Origin: an uncultured Acidobacteriota bacterium
GTDB lineage: Bacteria > Acidobacteriota > Vicinamibacteria > Vicinamibacterales > UBA2999
Direction of reading: 5' to 3'
DNA: 37,854 nt
NCBI GenBank assembly: GCA_902826515.1
Contig: CADEFD010000025.1
Coordinates: 1 to 37,854, forward strand
Shown here: positions 15,374-26,749 of the stretch, piece after piece
Layout of the letters: each line of letters begins with the position of its first letter
Position numbering within the stretch: position 1 is the stretch's first letter
Notes under the pieces: generated by a model
Told to the model about the DNA's origin: nothing
Databases searched by the model: none
What the model saw: the letters and a program-made list of their open reading frames with translations, nothing else
Translations under genes and position numbers: made by a program

Positions 15374-15876
15374 GCACCCGCGGCGCACCCCCGAAAGCGG
15401 CGGCCCGCGCGACGAGCGACGAAGAGACGCTCATCGCCGACAACCGCAAGGCCCACTTCGACTACCACGTGCTCGAGACGTTCGAGGCCGGCGTGCAGCT
15501 GCTCGGCACCGAGGTCAAGGGCATCCGCGAGGGCAAGGCCAGCCTGCGCGACGCCTACGCCCGCATCGACAAGGGCGAGGTGTGGCTGTTCAACGTCCAC
15601 ATCAATCCCTACAGTCATCGCGGCTATGTGGACCACGACCCGAAGCGCAAGCGCAAGCTGCTGCTGCACGCGCAGGAGATCCGCAAGCTCATCGGCAAGA
15701 CCACCGAACGCGGACTGACGCTCGTGCCCCTGCGCCTGTACTTCAAGCGCGGCCGCGTGAAGGTCGCCATTGCCCTCGTCAAGGGCAAACAGGCCCACGA
15801 CAAGCGCGAGACCCTCCGCAAACGCGAGGTCGACCGCGAGACGCGGGCCGCCGTCAAGGAGCGCGCCCGCGCATGA
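15370..15876 (+). CDS. smpB: SsrA-binding protein
   Basis: A 168-residue RNA-binding protein that delivers tmRNA to stalled ribosomes for trans-translation. Conserved blocks are NRKAHFDYHVLETFEAG, LLGTEVKGIREGKASL, HINPYSHRGYVDHDPKRKRKLLLH and the basic C-terminal tail starting near GKQAHDKRETLRKR, which enters the decoding centre. The GTG start overlaps the pdxA stop (GTGA). No tmRNA gene (ssrA), often nearby, was seen in the window. The next gene starts on an ATGA overlap, so pdxA, smpB and the following aminotransferase are coupled. Confidence 0.95.
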   Translation: MSTRGAPPKAAARATSDEETLIADNRKAHFDYHVLETFEAGVQLLGTEVKGIREGKASLRDAYARIDKGEVWLFNVHINPYSHRGYVDHDPKRKRKLLLHAQEIRKLIGKTTERGLTLVPLRLYFKRGRVKVAIALVKGKQAHDKRETLRKREVDRETRAAVKERARA

Positions 15877-17024
15877 GTCAGGTGCCGTCGCTGCCCCCCA
15901 TCCCGTTCAACCGGCCCGCCGTGGCCGGCCGCGAGCGGGAGTACATGGAGCAGGCCCTGGCGTCGGGCCATCTGTCGGGCGACGGCGCCTTCACCGCCCG
16001 CTGCCACGCGATGCTCGAGGCGATCACCGGCGCGCCGAAGGTGCTGCTCACGACCTCGTGCACGCACGCGCTCGAGATGGCGATGCTGCTGCTCGGCCTC
16101 GCACCCGGCGACGAGGTCATCTGTCCCGCCTTCACGTTCGTGTCGTCGGTGAACGCGTTCGTGCTGCGCGGCGCCCGTCCCGTGTTCGTGGACATCCGCC
16201 CCGAGACGCTCAACATCGACGAGCGGCTGGTCGAGGCCGCGATCACGCCGCGCACGAAGGCGCTGCTCGTCGTGCACTACGCCGGCGTCGGCTGCGAGAT
16301 GGCGGCGCTCATGGCCATCGCGGCCCGCCACGGCCTGGCCGTCGTCGAAGACAACGCGCACGGCCTCTTCGGCCACTACGGCGGGCAGGCGCTCGGCAGC
16401 TTCGGCGCCATCTCGACGCTCAGCTTCCACGAGACCAAGAACCTCACCTGCGGCGAGGGCGGCGCGCTCGTGCTGAACGACGGCACGCTCGCCGAGCGGG
16501 CCGAGATCATCCGCGAGAAGGGCACCAACCGCAGCCGCTTCTATCGCGGCCAGATCGACAAGTACACGTGGGTCGACGTCGGCTCGAGTTACCTGCCGTC
16601 GGACCTGCTGGCCGCGTATCTCTGCGCGCAGCTCGAAGCCCGCGACCTCGTGCAGGCCCGCCGCCGCGCCATCTGGGACGGTTACGATGCCGCGCTGGCC
16701 GAGTGGGCGGATGCCCATGGCATCGGCCGGCCGCAGGTCCCCGCGCACTGCAGCCACCCGGCGCACATCTACTACCTGCTGCTGCCGTCGCTCGAGGCGC
16801 GCACGCGCCTGCTCGCCGACCTGCGCCGCGCGCTCATCCTCGCGACCTTCCACTACCAGCCGCTGCACCTCTCGGACATGGGCCGGCTGTTCGGGGGCCG
16901 CGACGGGCAGTGTCCCGTCACCGAGGACATCGCCGATCGGCTCGTGCGCCTGCCGGTGTTCTTCGATCTGAGCGCGCCGGATCAGGCGCGGGTCGTCGAG
17001 GCGCTGCGCGCCTTCCGCCCCTAA
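15873..17024 (+). CDS. rffA: dTDP-4-amino-4,6-dideoxygalactose transaminase (RffA/WecE type)
   Basis: A 383-residue PLP-dependent aminotransferase of the DegT/DnrJ/EryC1 family. The N-terminus IPFNRPAVAGREREYMEQAL-x-SGHLSGDG closely follows the RffA/WecE pattern, which forms dTDP-Fuc4N from dTDP-4-keto-6-deoxyglucose. The cofactor lysine is Lys189 in SFHETKN. Conserved CTHALEMA and PAFTFVSSVNAF segments bind PLP phosphate and substrate. No rmlA or rmlB for its substrate is in the window. It starts on an ATGA overlap with smpB and ends with its stop overlapping the convergent reductase gene by 4 bases. The substrate call is by motif; other DegT sugar transaminases are possible. Confidence 0.85.
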   Translation: MSQVPSLPPIPFNRPAVAGREREYMEQALASGHLSGDGAFTARCHAMLEAITGAPKVLLTTSCTHALEMAMLLLGLAPGDEVICPAFTFVSSVNAFVLRGARPVFVDIRPETLNIDERLVEAAITPRTKALLVVHYAGVGCEMAALMAIAARHGLAVVEDNAHGLFGHYGGQALGSFGAISTLSFHETKNLTCGEGGALVLNDGTLAERAEIIREKGTNRSRFYRGQIDKYTWVDVGSSYLPSDLLAAYLCAQLEARDLVQARRRAIWDGYDAALAEWADAHGIGRPQVPAHCSHPAHIYYLLLPSLEARTRLLADLRRALILATFHYQPLHLSDMGRLFGGRDGQCPVTEDIADRLVRLPVFFDLSAPDQARVVEALRAFRP

Positions 17025-17893
17025 GCCGGCGGCAGCGTCCGCACGTAGCGGGCGATGGCGTCGCGCCAGAGCGGCATCATCACGCCGTGCGCGGCGAGCG
17101 CCGCATTCGACAGCGCCGCGTACGTGGGCCGGCGGGCCGGGAACGCCGCGGGATCGAACGGCACGGGCGTGACCGCGCGGTCGGGATCGACACCAGACTC
17201 CACCGCAATAGCGCGCGCCACGTCCACCCACGTGCCGTGGCCGGAGTTCACGCAGTGGTAGAGCCCGAACGGCACGTCGCCGGCGAGAACCGCGGCGGCG
17301 GCGTCGGCGAGATCCGGCACGTACGACGGCGTCACCGTGCGGTTGGCGAACGCCTTCACCGTGTCGCCGCGGCGGATGGCGGCGGCGAGGCGGTCGAGAC
17401 TGCTCTTGGCGCGGCTGCCGCCGAAGAGACTCGCCACCCGCAGCACGTAGTGTTTCGCCGCGCGCTTTGCGAGGATCTCGCCGAGCAGCTTCGACTGCGC
17501 GTAGATGCTGCGCGGGCTGATCGGCGCATCTTCGCGCATCGGGCCGGGATCGACGGCCGGGTCGAAGACGAAGTCGGTGCTGTAGTGCAGCAGCACCGCG
17601 TGTTCCCGCGTGGCGGCGTCGGCCAGCACGGCCAGGGCCAGCCCGTTGGCGGCAAGCGCCGCCTGCGGATCGCGCTCGGCGCCGTCCACGTCGTTGTACG
17701 ACGCGCAGTTGATGATGACGTCTGGCGTCACGGCGCGCGTGACGCGCGTGACATCGGCCGTCGAGGTGATGTCGCACTCCTGCCGCGTCACCGCGGTGAG
17801 CGCGCAGTGGCCGTCGAAACGGGCGCGGATGGCCCCGGCCAGCTGGGCGCCCGCGCCGGTGAGCAGGACTCGCGTGGTGGGGGTGAGCGGCAT
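17021..17893 (-). CDS. dTDP-4-dehydrorhamnose reductase-like SDR protein (RmlD family)
   Basis: A 290-residue extended short-chain dehydrogenase. It has the nucleotide motif LLTGAGAQLAG near residues 10-20, the STDFVFD segment (Ser105, Thr106, Asp107) and the catalytic Y-x3-K as YAQSK with Tyr131 and Lys135, the arrangement seen in RmlD. RmlD makes dTDP-L-rhamnose from the 4-keto sugar. The other rml genes are absent, so a related sugar-reductase role is open. The start at MPLTPTTRVLL is chosen because the ORF upstream is a shadow of the divergent transferase gene. It is the only minus-strand gene inside the plus-strand polysaccharide block. Confidence 0.8.
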   Translation of the reverse strand: MPLTPTTRVLLTGAGAQLAGAIRARFDGHCALTAVTRQECDITSTADVTRVTRAVTPDVIINCASYNDVDGAERDPQAALAANGLALAVLADAATREHAVLLHYSTDFVFDPAVDPGPMREDAPISPRSIYAQSKLLGEILAKRAAKHYVLRVASLFGGSRAKSSLDRLAAAIRRGDTVKAFANRTVTPSYVPDLADAAAAVLAGDVPFGLYHCVNSGHGTWVDVARAIAVESGVDPDRAVTPVPFDPAAFPARRPTYAALSNAALAAHGVMMPLWRDAIARYVRTLPPA

Positions 17894-17899
17894 ACGGGC

Positions 17900-17952
17900 G
17901 GCGGGACGGCCCGCCAGGACAGAACCGCGGGACCCGAGCGACACAGTATCAT
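17900..17952 (+). promoter_or_regulatory. Divergent control region with hairpin and TATCAT element
   Basis: Between the RmlD-like gene and the fused transferase lies a perfect 6-base hairpin GGCGGG/CCCGCC (17900-17905/17910-17915) and TATCAT (17947-17952), a 5/6 match to the -10 consensus on the plus strand. No -35 hexamer stands out. The element would start transcription about 15 bases before the transferase ATG. Confidence 0.4.
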
Positions 17953-17972: not shown

Positions 17973-19757
17973 ATGCCCGACTTGTGGTGGCCTCCGCTCG
18001 CCGCGTTCCTGCTCTCCGTCGCCCTGACGTATGTGGTGCGGCCGGCGGCGCGCATGGTCGGGGCGGTGGCGACGCCCAAGGAGGACCGCTGGCATCGCGG
18101 CACGATTCCCCTGCTCGGCGGCGTCTCGATCGCCGGCGCCGTGCTCATCGTGGTGCCCCTCCTGCCGGCGCTCTCGTGGAGCGCGTGGGCGCTCGTCGGC
18201 GGCGCGGCCGCCCTGGCGCTCGTGGGCCTGCTCGACGACTTCCGGCCGCTGCGTCCGCAGGTCAAGTTCCTGGTGCAGGTCATCGTCACCGCCATCGTGG
18301 TGGCGGGCGGCGTGCGGCTCACGGTGACCGGCGTCTCGCCGATTGACCAACTCCTCACGCTCGTCTGGCTGGTCGGCGTCACCAACGCCTTCAACCTGCT
18401 CGACAACATGGACGGGCTGGCCGCCGGCATCGGGCTCATCGCGGCCGGCTTCCGCTGCTACTTCTTCCTCGTGGACGGCAACGCCGAAGGCGCCTGGCTC
18501 GCCGCCACGCTCTGCGGCGCGCTCGCCGGATTCCTCCTCTTCAACTTCCAGCCGGCCTCGATCTTCATGGGCGACACCGGCAGCCTCTTCATCGGCATGC
18601 TGGTCGGCGGCCTGAACGTGATCGGGCCCTACGCCTACAGCCGCGGCACGGTCGCGGTGCTGATGCTGCCGGTGCTCGTGCTGCTCGTGCCGATCTTCGA
18701 CACCCTCTTCGTCACCATCGCCCGCACGCTCGCCGGAAGGTCGATCGCGCAGGGCGGCCGCGATCACACCTCGCACCGGCTCGTGGCGCTCGGCCTGTCG
18801 GAACGCGGCGCCGTGCTGGCGCTCTGGAGCATGGCCTTCGGGTCGGGCGTGGTGGCGGTGCTCTCGTATCGCCACGGCCTGCCGTATACCGCCACGCTGG
18901 TCGGGCTGCTCGTGGCGGGGCTCGCCGTGCTCGGCGTGAAGCTCGGCCTGCAGCGCGTCTATCCGCCGCGTGCCGATGTCGGCGCCATCCGCGTCGTGAC
19001 CGACCTCCGCTACAAGAAGCAGGTCGCCACTGTCGCCCTCGACGCCGCCCTCGTCGCCCTGGCCTACTACTCGGCCTACCTGCTGCGCTTCGAAGGCACA
19101 CTCGAGCGCGAGCTGCCCGTGTTCTCGAGCTCGCTGCTCATCATCCTCGTGACGCACGTCGTGATGCTCGGCGCCTTCGGCACCTACCAGGACTCGTGGC
19201 GCCACTCGGGCATCCGCGATCTGGTGAAGCTCACGGCCGCGGCCACCGCCGGCACCGCCCTCGCCATGCTCGTCGTGCTGCTCGCGTTCCGGTTCGAGGG
19301 CTACTCGCGCGCGGTGTTCGCCATCCACTGGCTGCTCACGACGAGTTTCCTGTGCGGCAGCCGCGTGCTCTTCCGGGCCCTCGGCGAGCTCTTCGTCGCC
19401 GCCGAAAGTGACGGCCCGCGCACAGTCATCTACGGCGCCGGCGCCGGCGGGGTGATGGTGCTGCGCGAGGCCCGCTCGAACGGCGACCTCGACTGGAAGA
19501 TCATCGGCTTCATCGACGACGATCGCGGCAAGTTCCGGACGAGCGTGCAGGGGGTGCCGGTGCTCGGCAGTCTCGAACAGGTGGCGCCGCTGCTGACCTC
19601 CGGCCAGGTGTCCCAGGTGGTCGTCTCGACCTCGACCGTGGCACCGGAACGTCTCGACGCCCTGACGCGCCTGTGCGCGGATGCCGGCGTCCGCACCCTC
19701 GTGGCCTCCCTCCAGTTCCACGATGCGCCAGGCTTCGGCGGGGCGCCCCGCGAATAG
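17973..19757 (+). CDS. WecA/MraY-type polyprenyl-phosphate GlcNAc(-like)-1-phosphate transferase fused to WbpM/CapD-type N-terminal module
   Basis: A 594-residue membrane protein of two parts. Residues 1 to about 335 form a polytopic initiating transferase with Asp88-Asp89 (LLDDFRPL), NLLDNMDG (Asp144, Asp147), MGDTGS (Asp201) and DHTSHRL (His265, His268). These are all the catalytic motifs of the WecA family, which moves HexNAc-1-phosphate to undecaprenyl phosphate. From residue 348 comes the four-helix membrane module (YKKQVATVALDAALVALAYYSAYLLRFEG) and a Rossmann domain (VIYGAGAGG from about 485) found at the front of WbpM/CapD/PglF 4,6-dehydratases. The catalytic SDR domain that should follow is absent; the protein ends cleanly. 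It probably starts the glycan made by this locus. Confidence 0.87.
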   Translation: MPDLWWPPLAAFLLSVALTYVVRPAARMVGAVATPKEDRWHRGTIPLLGGVSIAGAVLIVVPLLPALSWSAWALVGGAAALALVGLLDDFRPLRPQVKFLVQVIVTAIVVAGGVRLTVTGVSPIDQLLTLVWLVGVTNAFNLLDNMDGLAAGIGLIAAGFRCYFFLVDGNAEGAWLAATLCGALAGFLLFNFQPASIFMGDTGSLFIGMLVGGLNVIGPYAYSRGTVAVLMLPVLVLLVPIFDTLFVTIARTLAGRSIAQGGRDHTSHRLVALGLSERGAVLALWSMAFGSGVVAVLSYRHGLPYTATLVGLLVAGLAVLGVKLGLQRVYPPRADVGAIRVVTDLRYKKQVATVALDAALVALAYYSAYLLRFEGTLERELPVFSSSLLIILVTHVVMLGAFGTYQDSWRHSGIRDLVKLTAAATAGTALAMLVVLLAFRFEGYSRAVFAIHWLLTTSFLCGSRVLFRALGELFVAAESDGPRTVIYGAGAGGVMVLREARSNGDLDWKIIGFIDDDRGKFRTSVQGVPVLGSLEQVAPLLTSGQVSQVVVSTSTVAPERLDALTRLCADAGVRTLVASLQFHDAPGFGGAPRE

Positions 19758-19859: not shown

Positions 19860-22158
<2,299 letters not shown>

Positions 22159-23319: not shown

Positions 23320-25200
23320 CTAGTCGTCGAGCCAGGCGTTGACGACGGCGGCGCGCCGCGTGCCGCCGGCGCCCGGCCACGGGCGGCCGATGTCGACGCG
23401 CACCATCGGCCACTGCTTGGGCGGCACCGCCAGCCGGCACTCGAACGGCGTGGCGTCCCTGGCCTCGTGCTCGCACGCGATCCCGCCGCGCCCTGACACG
23501 ACCACCCGCACGGGGCGCGTGGCGGCGTCCTCGTGCGGCACGACGACCCGCGTCACCAGCGTGCGATGGCTGCCGGGATCGACCACCGCGACGCCGCGCT
23601 GGTCCATCCAGCGCCCGGTCCCGTACGGTGTCGGACCCACCGGCGTGACGCCGTAGCTGTAGGGCGTGTGGAAGCGGGCCGCACGGTAGGCGGGGCGAAG
23701 ATCCCGCCAGCCCGTCACTGCCGACCCCACGGCGCAGGCGAGCGCCAGCGCCCAGATCAGCCGGCCGTCGCGCGCGCGAACCGGTGCGCCGGCCGGCGCC
23801 GGCCAGCTGGTGACGGCGTGCGCGATGACCAGTCCGGCCAGCACCTGCAGCAGGGGGTGCGGCATCGGCGGCGAGACGAGCGCGAGCAGTCCCAGACCCG
23901 CGAGCGGCGCCGCGGCGGCGGCGTGTTCGCGCCTGGCCAGCGCACGCGCGAGCGCGGCGAGTGCCAGGAGCGAGCAGGCGAACGCCGGCAGGCTGCCGGC
24001 AAGGCCCAGTTCCGCGGCCTGCTGGCGCCACCAGTTCTGCGCGTTGTCGGGCGGCAGCGCAAAGGCGATCGCCTCGCTGGCGTAGCCGGTGACGAGGCTG
24101 CCGAACGTGCCCGGTCCGGCGCCCACCCACGGATGGTCCGTGATGATCGCCATCGCGGCCGGTCCGTAGCCGTCGCGATCCCACGCGAAGCGCCACACCC
24201 CCTCGGCGCCGGTCGTCCAGATTCCGCGGATGGTGTCGGCCAGGCGGCCGATGGCGTGGCCCATCGAGGCGTCGGGCACGCGGTCGGCCGCGACGACCAC
24301 GGCCACGAGCCCCAGCCCGGCCGCCAGCGCGAGCCAGCGGACCGGCCGGCTCGCCGCCAGTGCCTGCAGGCCCAGCACGAGGGCGAACACGGCCAGGGCC
24401 GATCGCGACCCGGTGGCGATGATGCCGGCCAGGCAGAGGGCCAGCCAGGCGGCGCCCCAGGCGACGGGCGGCACGACGGCGGGGCGCGCCGCCGAGGCCA
24501 CGACGATCGGCCCGACGAGGGCGATGAGCGCGGCCGTGGCATTGGCGTCGAGCAGCGTGCCCGACGAGCGCCGCAGCGCCACCCACGGTTCGCCGCTCAG
24601 GAATGCCGGGTTCACCTGTTGCTGCCACAGCGCGAGGGCGGCGGCCGCCGCGACGCCGGGCAGCAGCGCGGTCCACGTCCAGCGGCGGGCGTTGGCGGTG
24701 GCGCCCCAGTACCAATCGAAGAGCAGCAGGGCGACCAGTTGCGCGAGGCCCGTCAGCAGCACGACGCCGGCGTCATTGGGGGAGCCGGCCGCCGCCAGTG
24801 TGAAGTCGATCTCGCGCGCCGCCACCACCGGCGTCACGAGGGCCAGCACGAGCGCCCAGCCGGCGACCGCACCGCCCCAGAGTCCCTCGGCGTGCCAGGG
24901 GCGACGGCCCGGCCAGGCCAGCACCGCGGCAAGGCCGGCCAGCCACGGCATCAGCAGGTCGAAGTCGCCCGGCGGCCCCCATGGCCGCATCAGCACCGGC
25001 CAGAGCGGCGCCAGTGCCAGCGCGCCGGCCACGCCGGGCGTCGCGCCCGCCAGCAGGCGCAGCAGCAGGCCGGCGGCCACGGCGGCGACGGTGGGCCACG
25101 CCGCGCCGTCCTGCGCGGTGCGCAGGGCCGCGTGGGCAAGCGGGAGCAGCACCGCCGCGAGGCCGACGGCGACGCGCGCGGCACGCAGGGCTGGAGTCAC
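23320..25200 (-). CDS. O-antigen ligase/polymerase-like membrane protein (WaaL/Wzy_C family)
   Basis: A 626-residue polytopic protein with about ten to twelve hydrophobic segments. Signature pieces are GTLLDANATAALIAL, ATGSRSALAVFALVLG and the large periplasmic-loop motif HPWVGAGPGTFGSL followed by NAQNWWRQQAAELGLAG, typical of O-antigen ligases and Wzy polymerases. After the last membrane segment (about residue 475) there is a periplasmic C-terminal domain of about 130 residues. Ligase and polymerase cannot be told apart by these motifs. The GTG start lies 22 bases after the methyltransferase stop on the same strand, so it appears to be the last gene of the thiS-thiG-methyltransferase unit. 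Confidence 0.82.
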   Translation of the reverse strand: MTPALRAARVAVGLAAVLLPLAHAALRTAQDGAAWPTVAAVAAGLLLRLLAGATPGVAGALALAPLWPVLMRPWGPPGDFDLLMPWLAGLAAVLAWPGRRPWHAEGLWGGAVAGWALVLALVTPVVAAREIDFTLAAAGSPNDAGVVLLTGLAQLVALLLFDWYWGATANARRWTWTALLPGVAAAAALALWQQQVNPAFLSGEPWVALRRSSGTLLDANATAALIALVGPIVVASAARPAVVPPVAWGAAWLALCLAGIIATGSRSALAVFALVLGLQALAASRPVRWLALAAGLGLVAVVVAADRVPDASMGHAIGRLADTIRGIWTTGAEGVWRFAWDRDGYGPAAMAIITDHPWVGAGPGTFGSLVTGYASEAIAFALPPDNAQNWWRQQAAELGLAGSLPAFACSLLALAALARALARREHAAAAAPLAGLGLLALVSPPMPHPLLQVLAGLVIAHAVTSWPAPAGAPVRARDGRLIWALALACAVGSAVTGWRDLRPAYRAARFHTPYSYGVTPVGPTPYGTGRWMDQRGVAVVDPGSHRTLVTRVVVPHEDAATRPVRVVVSGRGGIACEHEARDATPFECRLAVPPKQWPMVRVDIGRPWPGAGGTRRAAVVNAWLDD

Positions 25201-25222: not shown

Positions 25223-26749
25223 TCAGGGGCGCCTGGCGACGATCGCGTAATCGCGGTGGGTGAAGAACAACCCGTTCAGCCGGTCGACGTTGCGATCGAG
25301 GACGTCGAGGAGGGACGGCAGAGCGGGATCCGAGGCGGCGGCGCGGGCGGCGGCAGGGAGCCGTTCGAGTTTGCCCGCCTCGGGATAGGGCGAGCGCCAC
25401 TGGATGGTGACGTCGGTGAAGCCGGCGGCCATGACCAGGAACTTCAGCGTGTCGGGATGCACCGGGCGCACGTGCGTCAGGTCGCGCACGTAGCTGTCGA
25501 AGAAGGCGCTCCAGCAGGCGGGGTTGATCGTCTCGAGCACGATCGCGGCGCCGGGCCTGAGCGCCTGCGCCGCCGCGGCCAGGAACCGCAGCAGGTAGTC
25601 GGGCTGCAGGTGCTCCACGACCTGGCAGGCGATGAGGCCGCCGAGGCTGCCGGGCGCCGACCCCGCCACGAACGACAGGCCGTCGGTTTCGGTGACGTCG
25701 AAGCCCTTGGCGCGGCTGCGCTCGACCATCTCGTGGTTGAGATCGACGCCGCGCGCCGTCAGGCCGGCGGATCGCAGCAGCTCGAGGAACTCGCCGCGCC
25801 CGCAGCCGACGTCCACGACATCGCCGGCCCCGGCGAAGATCGGCAGGTAGTCGGCCATGCGCTGCCGGATCTCGCTCTCGCTGCCGCGGAAGAGATCCTC
25901 GAAGCCCGCGTACTGCTGGCTCTGCAGGCGATCGCCGGCGAGCATCTGCTGGTGCGTGTCGCTCGCGGCGGCCGCCGCCTGGGGCACGGGGGCCGGTGCG
26001 CTGGTCGTCGGGGCGGCGCTCTGCGGCGCCGCCGGTACGCCGCGCGCGATCTCGCGGCTCAGCGCGAGCGAGGTCTGCTGCAGCACGGTCATCGCCGTGG
26101 CGAGATCGGCGAGACGGGCGTCGTAGCGCTGATCGCGGCCGAGCAGCGACTCGTAGCGCTTCAGCATCTCGTCCGACAGGCCGCTCGTGGCGGCGGCGAG
26201 GCCCCGCGCGATGTCTTCGAGGCGGCCGATCGCGACCTGCGCGTCTTCGGCCGTGCGGCGCGCCAGCCCGGCGAACTCGTAGTCCTTGGTGTCCACGTAC
26301 GGGGTGAGCGTCTGCAGGTAGACGACCAGCATCGACTGGAAGTGCGCGGCCTCCTCCACCTGGCGGCGCACCAGGCCGATGGTGGCGGCGATGGCGTCGG
26401 TGACGGCGCGTTCGCGCGGGATGCTGCGGTTCACGTGATCGACGAGCGACGCGTTGAACTGCTGCTGCGCGGCCAGCGCCGGCTGCATGGTGCGCCAGAC
26501 GAAGGCGGCAAGGCGGCCCTTCCAGCCGCTCGCGGCCGGCGCGTGGCCGAGCAGCGCGAACTGCTGGTTGAGCGGCGTGACCTGATGTTCGTCGGGCCCC
26601 GGCGGCGGATGCGGCAGGTCGGCCAGACGCTGCACGGCGGCATCCACGGCCGTGAGGGCCGCGTTGTAGCGCGCGTCGGCGGCCTCGCGCTCGCGCTTCA
26701 GGCGCGCGAGGTCGTCCTCCGACACCGTGCGCGCGACGGCCTCGGCCAC
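25223..26749 (-). CDS. Coiled-coil protein with C-terminal SAM-dependent methyltransferase domain
   Basis: A 508-residue protein. The first 240 residues are predicted mostly helical with heptad-like charged stretches (EDDLARLKREREAADARYNAAL and later), then an Ala/Pro-rich linker. A class I methyltransferase follows, with motif I VVDVGCGRGEF near residue 308, GVDLNHEMVERSR as the acidic loop and LVGLI-like ACQVVEHLQPDYL. Similar proteins sit in polysaccharide loci and may methylate sugars or cap chains, as the coiled-coil WbdD does; that function is inference. The start is a GTG whose G is shared with the thiG TAG stop; upstream frame is a shadow of thiG. Confidence 0.8.
   Translation of the reverse strand: MAEAVARTVSEDDLARLKREREAADARYNAALTAVDAAVQRLADLPHPPPGPDEHQVTPLNQQFALLGHAPAASGWKGRLAAFVWRTMQPALAAQQQFNASLVDHVNRSIPRERAVTDAIAATIGLVRRQVEEAAHFQSMLVVYLQTLTPYVDTKDYEFAGLARRTAEDAQVAIGRLEDIARGLAAATSGLSDEMLKRYESLLGRDQRYDARLADLATAMTVLQQTSLALSREIARGVPAAPQSAAPTTSAPAPVPQAAAAASDTHQQMLAGDRLQSQQYAGFEDLFRGSESEIRQRMADYLPIFAGAGDVVDVGCGRGEFLELLRSAGLTARGVDLNHEMVERSRAKGFDVTETDGLSFVAGSAPGSLGGLIACQVVEHLQPDYLLRFLAAAAQALRPGAAIVLETINPACWSAFFDSYVRDLTHVRPVHPDTLKFLVMAAGFTDVTIQWRSPYPEAGKLERLPAAARAAASDPALPSLLDVLDRNVDRLNGLFFTHRDYAIVARRP

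Follow-up and report, generated by a model that had tools for sequence, protein, structure and literature searches.

A WecA-type initiating transferase that ends in the membrane and Rossmann module of CapD and WbaP proteins: a possible nucleotide-responsive control of chain initiation

Introduction

Why should a transferase of the class that initiates surface-polysaccharide chains end in the front half of a sugar dehydratase, with the dehydratase itself absent? The question is raised by an open reading frame at 17973-19757 (+) of the window, by which we mean the whole stretch of DNA analysed, 37,854 nucleotides of contig CADEFD010000025.1 from an uncultured Acidobacteriota bacterium. The frame has an ATG start and encodes 594 amino acids. 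A sequence-only reading had described the product as a WecA-type transferase joined to the front half of a WbpM/CapD protein, and had suggested that the orphan module either senses or binds a ligand and gates chain initiation, or docks a separate dehydratase.

Polytopic transferases were listed as 'PGT only', without accessory domains, in the 2024 WbaP paper, and the authors of the WbaP structure found the presence of the module on both transferases and dehydratases puzzling (PMC10942596). UMP, UDP and UTP each make the isolated module domain of WbaP more stable, and WbaP activity is inhibited by UMP, the IC50 being 4.1 uM (PMC10942596). Our literature search found no paper joining both domain names in a description of the present architecture; domain databases may well list it. 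To our knowledge, a role for the module's Pfam domain, PF13727, as a uridine-nucleotide sensor that alters activity is known for WbaP only.

Results

The protein is a complete polytopic phosphoglycosyl transferase of the WecA/MraY type followed by a four-helix bundle and a Rossmann domain, without a dehydratase. Pfam places Glycos_transf_4 (PF00953) at residues 72-217 (E 2e-33; 116 bits, cut-off 27) and CoA_binding_3 (PF13727) at residues 401-575 (E 1.4e-15; 58 bits, cut-off 25), and gives no match in the protein to Polysacc_synt_2 (PF02719) or Bac_transf (PF02397). A longer open frame runs from 17610, its upstream part overlapping the divergent RmlD-type gene; the ATG at 17973 is common to the aligned proteins of the same genus.

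The transferase half (residues 1-328; 17973-18956, with this and the following parts all on the plus strand) has 11 predicted membrane helices. It is followed by a variable linker (residues 329-345; 18957-19007), where identity within the genus is 47-65%, compared with 72-96% for the domains. The four-helix transmembrane bundle (residues 346-473; 19008-19391) shows the CapD-type signatures D357, R372, Y405xxxW409, D416 and R464 in the conservation table. The Rossmann domain (residues 474-577; 19392-19703) has GAGxxG at 488-493, F513-x-DDD with the aspartates at 515-517, and G527, and no beta-hairpin beyond its last strand. A short disordered tail with the stop codon (19704-19757; pLDDT 37-42) then ends the chain, without an SDR domain.

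Structure modelling, which the sequence-only reading had proposed, gave an AlphaFold2 whole-chain model (pLDDT 75) with helices for the 11 membrane spans, then a linker that is disordered at 328-348 (pLDDT <50), then four more helices. A five-stranded Rossmann fold closes the chain, its last strand at 574-577 before a short low-confidence tail, so the claim that the chain stops after this domain was borne out. The module modelled alone from 35 relatives reached pLDDT 91. As judged from the model and from charges, the transferase half, with its 11 helices, would end in the cytosol as WecA does, and the four further helices would return the chain there, which would set the Rossmann domain on the face where UDP-sugar binds and UMP is released.

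All the catalytic residues cited for a WecA-type enzyme are present: D88, D89, D144, D147, D201, H265 and H268, with the histidine motif reading D264-H265-x-S-H268-R-L. All seven are kept in 80 of 81 fusions, locus L030 being the sole exception. Foldseek with the moderate-confidence model (pLDDT 75) matched MraY, with a TM-score by target of 0.66-0.76, and also DPAGT1. WecA is the nearest NCBIfam model to the first half, scoring 117 bits to TIGR02380 against an equivalog cut-off of 326; as this is far under the cut-off, the half is WecA-type rather than a proven WecA. The source genome has only two PF00953 genes, the fusion and one of MraY type, and also encodes two large monotopic transferases.

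The module is nearest to the front half of WbpM/CapD proteins and next nearest to that of large monotopic transferases such as WbaP. By hhalign it matched CapD front halves at E 7.7e-56 and the large monotopic transferases at 3.7e-30, and W409, R498 and D517-x-x-K520 are CapD-type. The kinship with WbpM/CapD that had been read from the sequence thus stands; what that reading missed was the same module on WbaP and WcaJ, which is the better functional analogy. WcaJ/WbaP-type modules were rejected as the nearest kin, their profile match being weaker than that of CapD. For the second half of the protein, the nearest NCBIfam match, below cut-off, was the front half of large monotopic transferases.

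Among solved structures, the profile of the module picked out 3nkl, a Rossmann domain deposited as UDP-D-quinovosamine 4-dehydrogenase, at E 5e-18 and WbaP at E 4e-8. Fold matching with Foldseek returned WbaP 8t53 (E 1.7e-5), 3nkl (2.0-2.3 A over about 100 columns) and then NAD(H)-sensing Rex proteins. By Pfam, the Rossmann domain resembles PglD_N, the front domain of a sugar acetyltransferase. The match to WbaP stops ahead of the WbaP beta-hairpin, and most fusions end within about 20 residues of that point. The nucleotide site is well conserved across the 81 fusions (GxGxxG 90-97%, D515/D516 91-92%, G527 95%). For a single pair of sequences the dN/dS of the Rossmann domain was 0.027, a value from which no conclusion is drawn.

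That two genes were joined by an artefact of prediction, assembly or frameshift has next to no probability. Both gene kinds do adjoin at one locus (L140), parted by a stop codon. Against an artefact, the full-length fusion is present in all five searched genomes of the genus, in one unbroken frame across the junction, the four copies outside the source genome being 76-89% identical to that of the window; in an even sample of 199 genomes from the phylum, 35 have a match that spans the junction, counted as junction-spanning rows without a stop; and 59 loci come from independent assemblies that include single-contig and isolate genomes. The orthologues rule out the frameshift or assembly error that the sequence-only reading had considered.

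The fusion is also frequent among other genomes of the same order. Mapped by taxonomy, dehydratase-less fusions made up 59 of the best 80 loci in a scan of a public genome collection, spread over about 12 phyla; the record titles name Rokubacteria, Acidobacteria, Desulfobacteraceae and other deltaproteobacteria, Omnitrophota, Planctomycetes, Nitrospirae, Chloroflexi, Actinobacteria, Gemmatimonadetes, Verrucomicrobia, Bacteroidetes and Salinibacter, and most of these records are metagenome bins, so that single phylum labels may be wrong, while Salinibacter altiplanensis is an isolate. No full fusion was found in plasmid records. No SDR follows the module in any orthologue checked, and the C-terminal extension is at most 93 amino acids in every fusion except three, one of which continues into a deacetylase (L030) and two into a GT-B domain (L143 and L144). 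A triple fusion of transferase, module and dehydratase was absent from about 90 fusions; its monotopic counterpart exists (L123).

The fusion is an old and widespread family of single origin, not a one-off, as seen mainly in the tree of the transferase half. In this 44-row tree, fused and unfused sequences are parted by three changes, compared with 12.7 in shuffles. One gain and two losses suffice, since the only exceptions are L094, which is unfused, and L031, whose module is replaced by a cytidylyltransferase. In the module tree a single branch sets the fusion modules apart, close to CapD and distant from the WbaP type; support for the branch is weak (46/16), so the case for a single origin comes chiefly from the transferase half. 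The two trees have many subgroups in common, and the halves have therefore largely travelled together. At L140 (780-3890, minus strand) a separate WbpL-like transferase gene is followed directly by a complete CapD/WbpM gene, and it is plausible that this layout is ancestral to the fusion.

Several relatives vary the architecture. The 1046- and 1069-residue proteins of L143 (730-3867, minus strand) and L144 (680-3886, minus strand) consist of a polytopic transferase, the PF13727 module and then a GT-B glycosyltransferase, and therefore hold two chain-assembly steps in one polypeptide. A 903-residue paralogue at L030 (1441-4149, plus strand) continues from the module into a polysaccharide deacetylase with DUF3473. 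Its transferase motifs are degenerate (D88 to S, D201 to E), and to judge by these substitutions it is likely to be a dead transferase retained as a platform. A polytopic transferase at L031 (997-2556, minus strand) has a cytidylyltransferase-like domain (PF01467) in place of the module. In two genomes of one related genus the protein (L017, 1462-3189, minus strand; L151, 1629-3149, plus strand) has the transferase and four helices and ends just before the Rossmann domain, and no Rossmann domain was found in the stretch fetched around either.

Monotopic enzymes show related joins. At L123 (172-3696, plus strand) a 1175-residue protein consists of a monotopic transferase (PF02397) and a whole CapD (PF13727 and PF02719), and is the monotopic counterpart of a transferase-plus-dehydratase fusion. 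One frame at L106 (3121-5403, plus strand) encodes a GT2 glycosyltransferase and PF13727 together with part of a monotopic transferase domain.

The fusion gene stands in a polysaccharide cluster. Its divergent neighbour is an RmlD-type reductase (17021-17914, minus strand; PF04321, E 5e-64) whose synteny is kept in the genus, and beside this lies a DegT/DnrJ aminotransferase (15582-17024, plus strand; PF01041, E 6e-92) with its gene start inside the open frame. Downstream are a nucleotide-sugar dehydrogenase (19860-21155, plus strand; TIGR03026, over cut-off), which is adjacent to the fusion gene in some members of the genus but not in others, and a GDP-mannose 4,6-dehydratase, GMD (21169-22158, plus strand; TIGR01472, 431 bits, cut-off 415). 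This GMD is a soluble extended SDR, not of CapD type. The same cluster has a membrane protein resembling Wzy or O-antigen ligase (23320-25200, minus strand), with a match to PF04932 at E 1e-4 that is below cut-off, and a methyltransferase (25223-26749, minus strand) with PF13489 at its C-terminus and about 290 N-terminal residues without a Pfam match. The block of aminotransferases, RmlD-type reductase, GMD and Wzy-like protein is kept in the genus.

At the 59 fusion loci the commonest neighbours are GT-B glycosyltransferases (33/59) and NAD-dependent sugar epimerases (21/59), with asparagine synthase and Wzy-like proteins also among them. None of the 59 neighbourhoods, taken up to 8 kb on each side, contains a CapD-type SDR, and neighbourhood clustering gave no recurrent non-carbohydrate partner gene beside most fusions. 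The only strong full-length match to a CapD-type dehydratase in the source genome is a stand-alone protein on another contig, C3 (L138, 2013-3161, plus strand), which has no membrane module and lies beside motA/motB-like genes.

Discussion

The fusion protein would be the initiating enzyme of a surface-polysaccharide cluster, making O-antigen or exopolysaccharide. By the reaction known for its family, it would use a UDP-sugar to load undecaprenyl phosphate with a sugar-1-phosphate, probably HexNAc-1-phosphate, and release UMP. The CapD/WbaP-type module would lie at the cytosolic C-terminus, the predicted topology placing its Rossmann domain and the active site on one side of the membrane. There the module most likely regulates in cis, with the helix bundle aiding dimerisation or positioning of the enzyme and the Rossmann domain binding a uridine nucleotide (UMP, UDP or UDP-sugar) that would lower or raise initiation. 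We put the probability at about one half that the cytosolic module regulates chain initiation in this way, most likely in response to a nucleotide; both the binding and the regulation are argued by analogy with WbaP.

The conserved catalytic residues, the nucleotide-sugar gene context, the kept Rossmann site, the match to WbaP and the co-inheritance of the two halves all count towards a regulator. Other results count against it. The Rossmann domain is absent in the two genomes of one related genus, where it must be dispensable because the transferase and helices are kept without it. The beta-hairpin of the WbaP dimer is missing, and CapD rather than WbaP is the closer kin of the module. The ligand could also be of another kind, since the Rossmann fold matches the NAD(H)-sensing Rex proteins as well.

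The main rival holds that the module is a protein-docking platform, so that binding of a regulator or a later pathway enzyme would recruit the transferase or activate it. EpsZ, a large monotopic transferase that has the module without the beta-hairpin, is activated by the response regulator EpsW, probably, by modelling, through the module region (PMC12802240), and in L143, L144 and L030 a further pathway enzyme does follow the module. However, no one partner gene outside carbohydrate metabolism recurs beside most fusions, and the nucleotide-site motif is conserved beyond what a pure docking surface would need; we consider docking possible but rather improbable. Less probable again, and in our judgement unlikely, is a mainly structural module, which would hold a dimer together or fix the enzyme in a membrane complex and involve no regulation by a ligand. 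Such a role would suit the helices that persist without a Rossmann domain in one genus, and much of the WbaP dimer interface lies in the module domains (PMC10942596), but a nucleotide-binding motif kept in about nine-tenths of fusions over about 12 phyla speaks against it, as do the WecA and MraY relatives that function without such a module. The suggestion that the module docks a separate CapD-type dehydratase, which would hand a modified sugar to the transferase, fared worse again. It draws on the CapD kinship of the module, on the transferase gene directly before a complete CapD gene at L140 and on the whole CapD fused to a monotopic transferase at L123. With no CapD-type SDR in any of the 59 neighbourhoods, and the source genome's only strong match on another contig by motility genes, it appears very improbable.

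If the module does respond to UMP, an initiating enzyme class that usually has no accessory domains would respond to its own by-product. Restraint of initiation matters for all surface glycans, because undecaprenyl phosphate is in short supply and cell-wall synthesis draws on it too. The polytopic transferase is a third unrelated catalytic partner for the module, in about 12 phyla, which argues that the module does the same job wherever it is placed. Rather more tentatively, at somewhat less than even odds, PF13727 with its four-helix bundle may be a portable feedback valve for uridine nucleotides (UMP), used on monotopic transferases, on CapD-type dehydratases and on polytopic WecA-type transferases. 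Members of this enzyme class are found both with the module and without it, which offers a clean test of module function.

Each part of the fusion can be set beside a known system. The polytopic transferases WecA, TagO and WbpL (PNPT, PF00953; structures of MraY and DPAGT1) share its catalytic domain, acidic motifs and 11-helix topology, but the fusion has an additional module of 260 residues. The first cytosolic loop reads DRWH in the fusion family and R-K/R-x-H in most of the unfused relatives compared, and the later motif is DHxSHRL rather than the HxHH of classical members, although DHxSHRL is also found in the nearest unfused relatives.

The WbpM/CapD/PglF 4,6-dehydratases (PF13727 and PF02719) share the bundle and Rossmann domain, with the motifs YxxxWR, GAGxxG and DDDxxK. 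In these proteins, however, the module is N-terminal, whereas in the fusions it is C-terminal, and the catalytic SDR is absent from every fusion examined. The best functional analogy is with WbaP, WcaJ and EpsZ (PF13727 and PF02397), which are alike in reaction class, module and predicted cytosolic position of the module. Their catalytic domain has an unrelated monotopic fold and the order of domains is reversed. The fusion modules also finish before the site of the beta-hairpin, which in WbaP makes most of the dimer contact.
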